From Homarus americanus (Eukaryota > Arthropoda > Malacostraca > Decapoda > Nephropidae): 64,000 nt of DNA. The position numbers were made by a program, and so were the translations under genes. The stretch lies in contig NW_024737042.1 of NCBI RefSeq assembly GCF_018991925.1, positions 16,185,504 to 16,249,503 of the forward strand, read 5' to 3'. The stretch's first letter is position 1. Every line of letters starts with the position of its first letter. Positions 17,466-24,537 of this stretch are shown here, in pieces. A model generated the notes under the pieces. It was given only the letters and a program-made list of their open reading frames with translations. It had not been told where the DNA came from and searched no databases.

Positions 17466-21066
<3,601 letters not shown>

Positions 21067-21127
21067 GTATGTACATACGAACATACGTACTAGGCGGCTG
21101 CATTTATGAAAAAAACCCACCTTGCCC

Positions 21128-21352
21128 TAAAAAAAAATTCCTACAAAAGGTTTCTCAACTGTTTATTGTAGTATCAGGTATGCTTAATAACATATCAAAA
21201 GTCTACCACAGTCTGGCCACGAGAAAGGTCTAATTTTCAAGATGGCGTCGAATAGCCACCAAATCCTAAAAATGCCTGTTACTCCTTCATTATTCATCCT
21301 AGAGAAGTAATTTTGATGTCTAACCCCATGTTTTGGTGGCCTAGGAATCTGT
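21128..21352. repeat. Left terminal inverted repeat of the nuclease element
   Basis: It pairs with 23925-24148 in inverse orientation. Shared landmarks are CTGTTTATTGTAGTATCAGG, CATATCAAAAGTCTACCACA, CGAGAAAGGTCTAATTTTC, AAGATGGCGTCGAA and TTCATTATTCATCCTAGA. One sub-terminal repeat unit is included. Confidence 0.88.
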
Positions 21353-21420
21353 TTGGCGTGTTAAAAAAGCGACATGTTTACATAATTGTGAAACCAAGAT
21401 ACAATTTGCTTTGTATGACT

Positions 21421-23495
21421 GTTTATTTACATTATTGCCTGCCAATATTTGCCGCCGCTGGGCACTACAACTATCTGAAATCTGCATATTGCTATGTCCA
21501 AGAAATGTGCCAACTCGAGGCTAGACATCCTGATATATATGACAGACAAATTTTCTAGGGGTTTCCATGTGATCCGCCGCAGCAACCAGTGCTGGGCAGG
21601 CCTTAGCTCTGACCTTGTGAGCGAGCAGACACTAATGCGGTCCTTAAAGAGTAGTGGAGGCTTGACTCATGGAATGACTCAGTGGAATGACTGAAGAAAT
21701 GCAGCCTAGTGTTATGGACCATGTCCATACCCATCACATCTGAGTACAACAATGCCATGCAGGAATTCAATCACCTCACCTACATAATCAGCGAGCAACA
21801 CCGAGAATTAACAGAAGCAAGGATGAAACGAGATCACTCTGACCTGGAAAAGATCAAGGAAAAACTGTCCACATGCATGCCATTTTCTCCAGACCCATCT
21901 CTGAGAAACATCATTACTGGTTTAGTTGCCAAAGAGGATGTGAATGTGCATGAGTATGAGACTGTTGGGAATGAGATTATTGAAAAAATGGTTGGAAAAC
22001 CTGTTTTTGGGATCTCATTCAAACGGAGAGACCGGGCTAAAACCCTCGCACATGAGTCCACCATCAAATTTGCCCAAGGCCGAACCATTGATCTTGCTCT
22101 GCTGTTCCAAAGATTTCTGGTTCTGTCAAAAACCCGAGACCTTTCCTTAGAAGATGTAATGAGCTATGAGCTCAGCCCATTCCCTACAGCCCTGTTTGAA
22201 GCCAAGGAAATCTTTCGTAAAGCTGACAAGCCCCAACTAGCACTTGCAGTTGCTGAGTATTCAAGCAAGAAATCAAAAGAAGCTGTCATGGATTCTATCC
22301 CACTAACTGAAAATTATGTCCTTGACGGTGGTTCTCTGGTTCATCACTTGCCATGGAAAAAGGGTGACAGTTATGGTGCCATTGCACGGATGTATGCTGA
22401 CTTTACCATACGCCATTATGGAAAAGCAACCGTAGTTTTTGATGGCTATAGTGAAGGTCCTTCCATCAAAGACAATACGCATCAGCGACATGGGCAAAAC
22501 ACCCGCCCGATCATCAGCTTCAATGCAAAAACTGAGTTTGTTGGAAGAAAGGATGATTTCCTTTCCAGATTTTGCAACAAACAAGGACTTATTGATCTTG
22601 TAACTGAGGAACTACAAAAGAAGGGCTGCACTATTATCAATGCATTAGGGGATGCAGACATGGACATTGTCAAGGCTGCAATCAAGGCGTCACAACATCA
22701 GCTCACGACCTTGATAGGGGAGGATACAGACCTGCTCATTCTTCTCCTCTACTATGCTGAAGCAAACAATAAGGGCCTCTATTTTCGTTCGGATAAGTCC
22801 ACAGTTCCTAAGGTGTACAACACCAGTGAGATGAAACAAGTCCTGGGTAGTGACATGTGTTCTCAGTTGCTGTTTATCCACGCTTTCACAGGATGTGACA
22901 CAACTTCCCGCATTTTCAGTGTTGGCAAAAAGTCAGCGTTCCAGAAACTTGTGAATGGTGAATTGACCATTCAGACCTGTGCGAATGCGTTTCTGCTCCC
23001 AAATCAAGCAAACAGTGTCATAGAGGACCTTGGGAGCAAGGCGATGGCAGTTCTGTTTGGTGGCAAGAGTACCGATTCACTTGCCTCTTTGCGCTACAAC
23101 CTTTTGATCAAGAAAATTGTCTCCGCCAAGTCATTTGTTACCCCAGAACGTCTCCCTCCTACCAAGTCCTCGACTAAATATCATAGCTTTAGAGTGTATT
23201 ACCAGATCATGGTGTGGACTGGAAAGGAGAGTGACATGAATGCAGTGGATTGGGGATGGAAACTGGAGGACAATCAGTTTGTGCCAGTTATGACCAAGAA
23301 AACTGCTGTGCCAGAAAGCCTCCTGCAGATGGTCCAATGTACTGTAATTGCACAACTGCCCGCCGAACACATTGTAGTTGCAGAAGATACGGACTACCAT
23401 GCACACCCGCTTGTGGACCATGTCAAATTGAAAACTGTGAGAATCCACATAATCAGCCTTTACAGGAGGAAGAGTGTGACTATGACTATTTGTAA
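21421..23495 (+). pseudogene. FEN1/XPG-like (PIN superfamily) nuclease with CXC tail
   Basis: One protein spread over four frame segments. 21421-21558 reads FAAAGHYNYLKSAYCYVQEM. 21545-21690 reads FSRGFHVIRRSNQCWAGLSS, then MRSLKSSGGLTHG. 21691-23340 is the main 550-codon block. 23338-23495 reads CNCTTARRTHCSCRRYGLPC, then TPACGPCQIENC. Frameshifts lie near 21550, 21688 and 23340. The nuclease signature is in the main block: VVFDGYSEGPSIKDNTHQRH near 22435 (compare the VFDG loop of FEN1), NALGDADMDIVKAA near 22640, GEDTDLLILLLYYA near 22717, and HAFTGCDTTSRIFSVGKKSA near 22880. The last resembles the GCDY..GVG..A segment of XPG/FEN1 nucleases. The acidic residues D/D, D.D and GCD fall where metal-binding residues lie in that family. 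The tail resembles a tesmin/TSO1-type CXC zinc-binding motif. Similar large uncharacterised proteins are, from memory, multicopy in many invertebrate genomes. The N terminus appears truncated. Confidence in the fold is moderate to high; the role is unknown. Confidence 0.72.
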
Positions 23496-23574
23496 ACCTG
23501 GTTCAGATCAAAGGCATTTTTCAGAAATATTTATTATGGGATTTGTTATAACTTCTTACCAGTAATCACTACAC

Positions 23575-23925
23575 TTTGTCAAATATGCTAATTGGTTTCC
23601 TAGATGCCCAAAACAAGGGGTCAGGGCCCAGAATTACCTGTCTAGGATGAATAATGATGGAGTCATTGGCATTTTCATAGTTTGGTGGCAATATTTGTCC
23701 GCCATCTTGGATTTTGTAATTCTGTAATCACTTCACAATTATTTCAAATATGCTAACTGGATTCCTAGATCCCCAAAACATGGGGTTAGACAACGAAATT
23801 ACTTGTCTAAGATGAATTAGAAAGAGTAATGGGCATTTTCATAGTTTGGCGGCCATATTGGTCCTCCATCTTAAATTATGCAATTATATAATGACTTCAC
23901 TATAATTTAGATATGCTAATTGGAT
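23575..23925. repeat. Sub-terminal tandem repeats, period about 164 bp
   Basis: Units start near 23579, 23744 and 23907 with the landmark ATGCTAATTGGATTCCTAGA. Each is followed by CCCCAAAACA.GG, a GTCTAGGATGAAT segment and a CCATCTT motif. The third unit merges into the right TIR. A related unit in inverse orientation is in the left TIR. Confidence 0.88.
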
Positions 23926-24148
23926 TCCTAGATCCCCAAAACATGGAGTTAGGCATCAAAATTACTTGTCTAGGATGAATAATGAAGGAGTAACGGGCAT
24001 TTTAAGGATCTGGTGGCTAACTTCGACGCCATCTTGAAAATTAGACCTTTCTCGTGGTTAGACTGTGGTAGACTTTTGATATGTTATTAAGCACACCTGA
24101 TACTACAATAAACAGTTGAGAAACCTTTTGTAGGAATTTTTTTGGGGT
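23925..24148. repeat. Right terminal inverted repeat of the nuclease element
   Basis: Inverse copy of 21128-21352, continuous with the third sub-terminal repeat. Beyond it lie about 30 bp of weak similarity, then ATACATAC-type microsatellite. Confidence 0.88.
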
Positions 24149-24159
24149 CAAACCATATT

Positions 24160-24316
<157 letters not shown>

Positions 24317-24344
24317 AGTAAATCACTCTAGGTGCGCTTGATCC

Positions 24345-24537
24345 AGGTATATGCTGATAACCGCAAGGAAAGAAGAAAACACGAAGTTCCCAAGCGCTTT
24401 CGTGTAATTCACATCTTCAGGGGTGAGTACAGACTAAGGAGAAGTACAAAACAAGCTGTATATATACAGAGGAGGGTGAGATCAGGCCCACAATGGTCAG
24501 TTATTAGGTAATGACCCTACTAATCTTTAAAAAGCAC
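24345..24537 (-). mobile_element. Penelope-like element 3'-end fragment (copy C)
   Basis: It matches 17611-17800 in the same orientation: AAGGAAAGAAGAAAACACG, CCCAAGCGCTTTCGTG, GGGGTGAGTACAGACTAA, CAGAGGAGGGTGAGA and CTACTAATCTTTAAA. Only the 3' untranslated end is present. It stops abruptly at 24537, where Helitron coding sequence begins. Confidence 0.9.
24381..24430 (-). ncRNA. Hammerhead ribozyme-like motif, PLE copy C
   Basis: Third copy of the same layout (CTGAAGA, GTG/CAC stem, GAAA, AGCGCT, U, GGG, with upstream CCC). All core positions are unchanged relative to copy B, including the single unpaired base before stem II. Confidence 0.5.

Follow-up and report, generated by a model that had tools for sequence, protein, structure and literature searches.

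The locus raised the question of whether a structure-specific nuclease can serve as the only enzyme of a mobile element. In the 64,000-nucleotide stretch of Homarus americanus DNA that was analysed (the window), the initial annotation had described an element bounded by inverted repeats, whose single broken gene encodes a FEN1/XPG-like nuclease, and had suggested that this combination would be a new type of mobility module. The description of the element itself holds. It occupies positions 21091..24171 (+ strand; 3,081 bp), as delimited by the termini of its family and a 3-bp duplication. The left inverted repeat (21091..21336, + strand; aligned part 21122-21336) has the terminus TAGGCGGCTG and the right one (23936..24171, - strand; aligned part 23936-24151) the terminus CAGCCTACTA, both placed by the family alignment, in which the ends read TAGGCGGCTG... 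and ...CAGCCGACTA. The two repeats agree at 203 of 213 aligned positions, with an alignment score of 186 compared to at most 25.5 in 200 shuffles, and a subterminal tandem repeat (23579..24003, + strand; period 164, 2.6 copies) is related to their inner part. With the termini so placed, the trinucleotide TAC stands on both sides (21088..21090 and 24172..24174). However, as the element sits inside a (TA)n tract, this duplication is weak as proof of insertion, and the proof is supplied by the family.

The surroundings of the element are also repetitive. Two copies of a sequence, apparently the tail of a Penelope-like element, stand in opposite orientation at 20739-21070 and 24204-24537 with 92% identity and enclose both the element and the (TA)n tracts. 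A weak GIY-YIG match (E 0.0032, below the Pfam cut-off) was detected at 20383-20718. A 454-residue frame at 24524-25888 matches the Pfam family Helitron_like_N (E 1.2e-46).

The coding part of the element begins with a broken remnant on the + strand (21436..21690), which represents the end of a putative transposase part and corresponds to the 1,454-residue relative P0001 from residue 774 onwards, including a segment with a conserved glutamate. In the reading-frame list it is followed by a 624-residue frame running from stop to stop (21691..23565, + strand). Residues 179-530 of this frame (22225..23280, + strand) have the predicted fold of a FEN1/XPG-like nuclease, with acidic residues at frame positions 212, 251, 321, 323, 345, 347 and 403. 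The CXC-like cysteine-rich tail that had been noticed in another frame lies at 23337..23492 (+ strand).

To establish how far this structure is shared, the left 241 bases of the element were compared with the window's own genome (2.2 Gb), which gave at least 56 matches, a lower bound since 40 of 115 candidates were scored. Of these, 25 could be assigned to left ends and 15 to right ends, and the remaining 16 match inner repeats in part. Setting aside the window's own left end, 20 of the other 24 were retrieved, making 21 loci with the window included, and both ends were present in 16 of these. The paired-end counts leave out L016 and L022, which are cut at contig ends, L020, whose terminal part is missing, and L012 and L024, in which the stretch contained no right end. 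L018 and L023 contain large inserts, apparently retrotransposons, in which gag- and pol-like frames are present. L011 and L027, and likewise L020 and L021, lie as pairs on one contig with identical left flanks, and segmental duplication thus adds to the copy number. An independent search with the protein sequence of the window frame yielded at least 93 matches (71 of 2,581 candidates scored). Three of the loci found in this way, L029, L030 and L031, were selected for the length of their open frames (763, 832 and 681 residues, respectively) and are excluded from the counts of paired copies. A predicted H. americanus protein, P0012, shares 90% identity with the window frame, to which L030, from the window's own genome, is equally close.

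An exact 3-bp target duplication flanks 13 of the 16 paired copies and a 4-bp duplication none, while left and right flanks taken from different copies agree in 13 of 240 control pairs. As L011 and L027 occupy one shared site, the independent cases amount to 12 of 15. Exact duplications are lacking in L018 (GAT/GAG), L026 (CTG/CTA) and L023, and in the last of these the duplication GTA/GTA would result if the end were moved one base further left. Moreover, the insertion site of L021 exists unoccupied in a repeat family: among the 43 matches listed after 40 of 3,193 candidates had been scored, 37 cross the junction, three are located at occupied copies and three are short downstream pieces. In the base-by-base alignment, made for L032, this unoccupied site shows no gap at the junction and carries the three bases once. 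The suspicion that the gene family is carried by a mobile element is supported: the nuclease gene travels on a multicopy element with terminal inverted repeats.

The claim that the nuclease is the only enzyme did not survive the comparison of copies. L011 and L027 span nearly all of P0001 (residues 1-1454), with broken frames, and in both of them the nuclease forms the C-terminal portion of a long protein with a conserved D-D-E set in its centre. L011 measures 5,627 bp, or about 5.4 kb without a private insert of about 0.2 kb. P0001 itself is encoded in a single frame on a public contig and shares 81% identity with the L030 frame. None of the examined loci of this genome has an uninterrupted copy of 1,454 residues; the long protein is present here in pieces, and in one frame in natural relatives. 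Of 6,180 candidates in the search for such relatives (upper protein length 1,456), 244 proteins reached E ≤ 0.001, and among the 120 listed at least 21 have 1,400 residues or more. From these 120, 30 were picked for alignment, mostly by length. The order of domains in P0001 is zinc-finger-like N-terminal parts, the central D-D-E domain, the nuclease and the cysteine-rich tail. D433 is kept in 29 of the 30 aligned relatives (the exception starts later), D588 also in 29 (the exception has N) and E835 in all 30. Similarly, the nuclease residues D1065, D1104, D1174, D1176, D1198, D1200 and D1257 are kept in 30/30 relatives, and all seven are present in the window frame. Each of the nine tail cysteines is found in 29 or 30.

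The order of strands and helices of the central domain in the structure model of P0009 fits an RNase H-like DDE core. Judging from this predicted secondary structure and from the conservation, the central domain is likely a DDE transposase. The structure lists of the long model were filled by matches to the nuclease part, so that the absence of a listed fold match for the central domain does not speak against any fold family there. For the nuclease part, comparison of the model indicates the fold of EXO1/FEN1 with 12-16% identity in the structural alignments. The nuclease is thus predicted to have the FEN1/XPG fold, in agreement with the initial annotation. Neither the window frame nor the pieces of the long protein matched a nuclease or transposase family in Pfam. 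The only Pfam match in the central region is the unnamed family DUF6589 (PF20231), below its cut-off, which was detected in 6 of the 30 relatives (best E 6.7e-05). In P0103 it covers residues 198-435, again below the cut-off, and takes in the second aspartate at 201; sub-threshold matches after the second aspartate were likewise observed in P0103, P0105 and P0056. These sequence matches hint that DUF6589 could represent the transposase core; the name had no mention in the literature searched. Sequence comparison of the window frame, L030 and the A1 profile with the PDB gave nothing meaningful, and IMG/VR, scanned with A1 (two peptide patterns), yielded no relative.

Taken together, we consider it very probable that the window element is a non-autonomous derivative, shortened by internal deletion, of a cut-and-paste DNA transposon of the AcademX type, a lineage assigned by described features, since the nuclease, the 3-bp duplication and the element length agree with what is described for AcademX and Academ. 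Nuclease-encoding transposons with terminal inverted repeats already bear the name AcademX, a lineage of Academ (PMC10045372), which removes the novelty proposed for the module. A DDE transposon with an XPG-like nuclease from some other superfamily would be another reading. It gains some ground from the fact that kinship to Academ was judged by features and that Pfam names neither part of the protein, but the combination of a nuclease with 3-bp duplications is the one reported for AcademX (PMC10045372) and the element length agrees with that of bivalve Academ elements, whose consensus sequences average 5,565 bp (PMC10294476), which makes such an origin improbable.

The copies also explain why the window element looked as it did. 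Relative to L011, a main deletion of 1.7-3.2 kb, with private ends in each case, was found in 14 of the 15 other paired copies, the exception being L027. In 11 of these 14 deletion copies the aligned segments share 1-6 bases at the main junction, where overlaps of 1-2 bases carry little meaning, and extra bases are present in the remaining three. The window copy has lost 2,566 bp, including both conserved aspartates, and its junction at 21434..21436 consists of three bases common to both sides. It appears to encode a C-terminal nuclease alone because the internal deletion removed the putative transposase half. The nuclease core is intact in five paired copies (the window, L009, L011, L027 and L028), represented at fractions of 0.99 in L010 and 0.69 in L019, and absent from 9 of the 16; both aspartates are retained in L011, L027, L014, L015 and L026. 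Both halves are thus combined only in L011 and L027, which share one duplicated site. The initial annotation would have been refuted by repeats whose copies usually enclose a known transposase and not this gene. The copies come close to that outcome, except that a single gene encodes both the putative transposase and the nuclease.

A new type of mobile element whose only mobility enzyme is a structure-specific nuclease could still be read from the window copy, L009 and L028, which have complete ends and the whole nuclease core and neither aspartate. Yet 14 copies derive from a longer element by deletions whose end points differ from copy to copy, three of the nine copies without the core keep both aspartates, and in natural relatives a single protein contains both parts. 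As L011 and L027 also carry the upstream D-D-E part, this reading is refuted for the present family, and we regard it as highly improbable.

It is equally hard to credit that a host FEN1/XPG-type gene was captured by, or came by chance to lie between, unrelated inverted repeats, an idea suggested by a fold that is that of host repair nucleases and by the lack of Pfam transposase matches, but rejected because the nuclease shares its ends with many copies, is joined to the upstream part in one reading-frame unit, in P0001 as in other relatives, and recurs inside inverted repeats at two divergent loci of the same genome. One of these, L033, corresponds to residues 747-1439 of P0001 at 58-62% identity, with the first half absent, and sits within an inverted repeat of 118 bp that spans about 3.0 kb. 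At the other, L034, fragments that correspond to residues 5-1447 (44-64% identical) are distributed over both strands and enclosed by a 298-bp inverted repeat with a total span of about 6.1 kb. Outside this genome, the predicted protein P0032 of the hagfish Eptatretus burgeri has two OST-HTH/LOTUS stretches followed by the nuclease and CXC tail, and shares 83% identity with the lobster-type L030 frame across 457 aligned positions. P0032 is possibly a domesticated fusion or an artefact of the gene model, and its sequence similarity could be a lead towards horizontal transfer.

For the AcademX-type transposon we propose a parent element of about 5.4 kb encoding one protein of about 1,450 residues. 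This protein would have zinc-finger-like parts at its N-terminus and, in its centre, a DDE transposase of the RNase H-like type into which a long helical stretch is inserted, followed by the FEN1/XPG-like nuclease and the CXC tail. The central domain would cut the ends and join them to the target with a 3-bp stagger, and the nuclease may trim branched intermediates such as flaps when the element is excised or inserted. The window copy, with complete ends and no transposase half, would have moved, or could move, only in trans, and the varied private losses are consistent with faulty repair followed by such movement. In addition, a small frame-breaking deletion is common to L011, L027 and L030 and does not occur in L014 or L026, suggesting renewed movement or duplication of a copy whose frame was already broken. 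It is conceivable, if unlikely, that deletion copies with a long nuclease-plus-CXC frame, such as L029, L030 and L031, produce truncated proteins that repress or assist the full transposase in trans, in which case the nuclease-only product would have its own role in the family. The element is ordinary for its kind, and its nuclease shares one transposon protein with a likely transposase. The case illustrates that internal deletion can leave a transposon seemingly with an accessory enzyme alone. At the same time, the natural copies with and without the fused nuclease allow its need in cis to be examined in this genome.

Among known systems, FEN1, EXO1 and XPG/Rad2 resemble the window nuclease in predicted fold and in the seven acidic positions, but here the nuclease belongs to a transposon protein, in which a CXC tail follows it. 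The nuclease of AcademX is of the XPG type. Kolobok lineages likewise pair a DDD/E transposase with a nuclease, but the accessory nucleases named for them are of other types, namely lambda-exonuclease-like, His-Me finger and DnaQ (PMC9587614). AcademH belongs to the same superfamily according to the literature, but is described as having duplications of 9 or 10 bp and a helicase, compared to 3 or 4 bp and a nuclease for AcademX (PMC10045372). The 3-bp duplication of the window family and the absence of a helicase among the 15 Pfam families that had a match in at least one of the 30 relatives at an E-value of 0.5 or lower led us to reject AcademH. With AcademX, the family shares the encoded nuclease, a duplication within the stated 3-4 bp, inverted ends and a length near 5.5 kb; the window copy differs in being internally deleted and frame-broken, and the likeness is one of described features.
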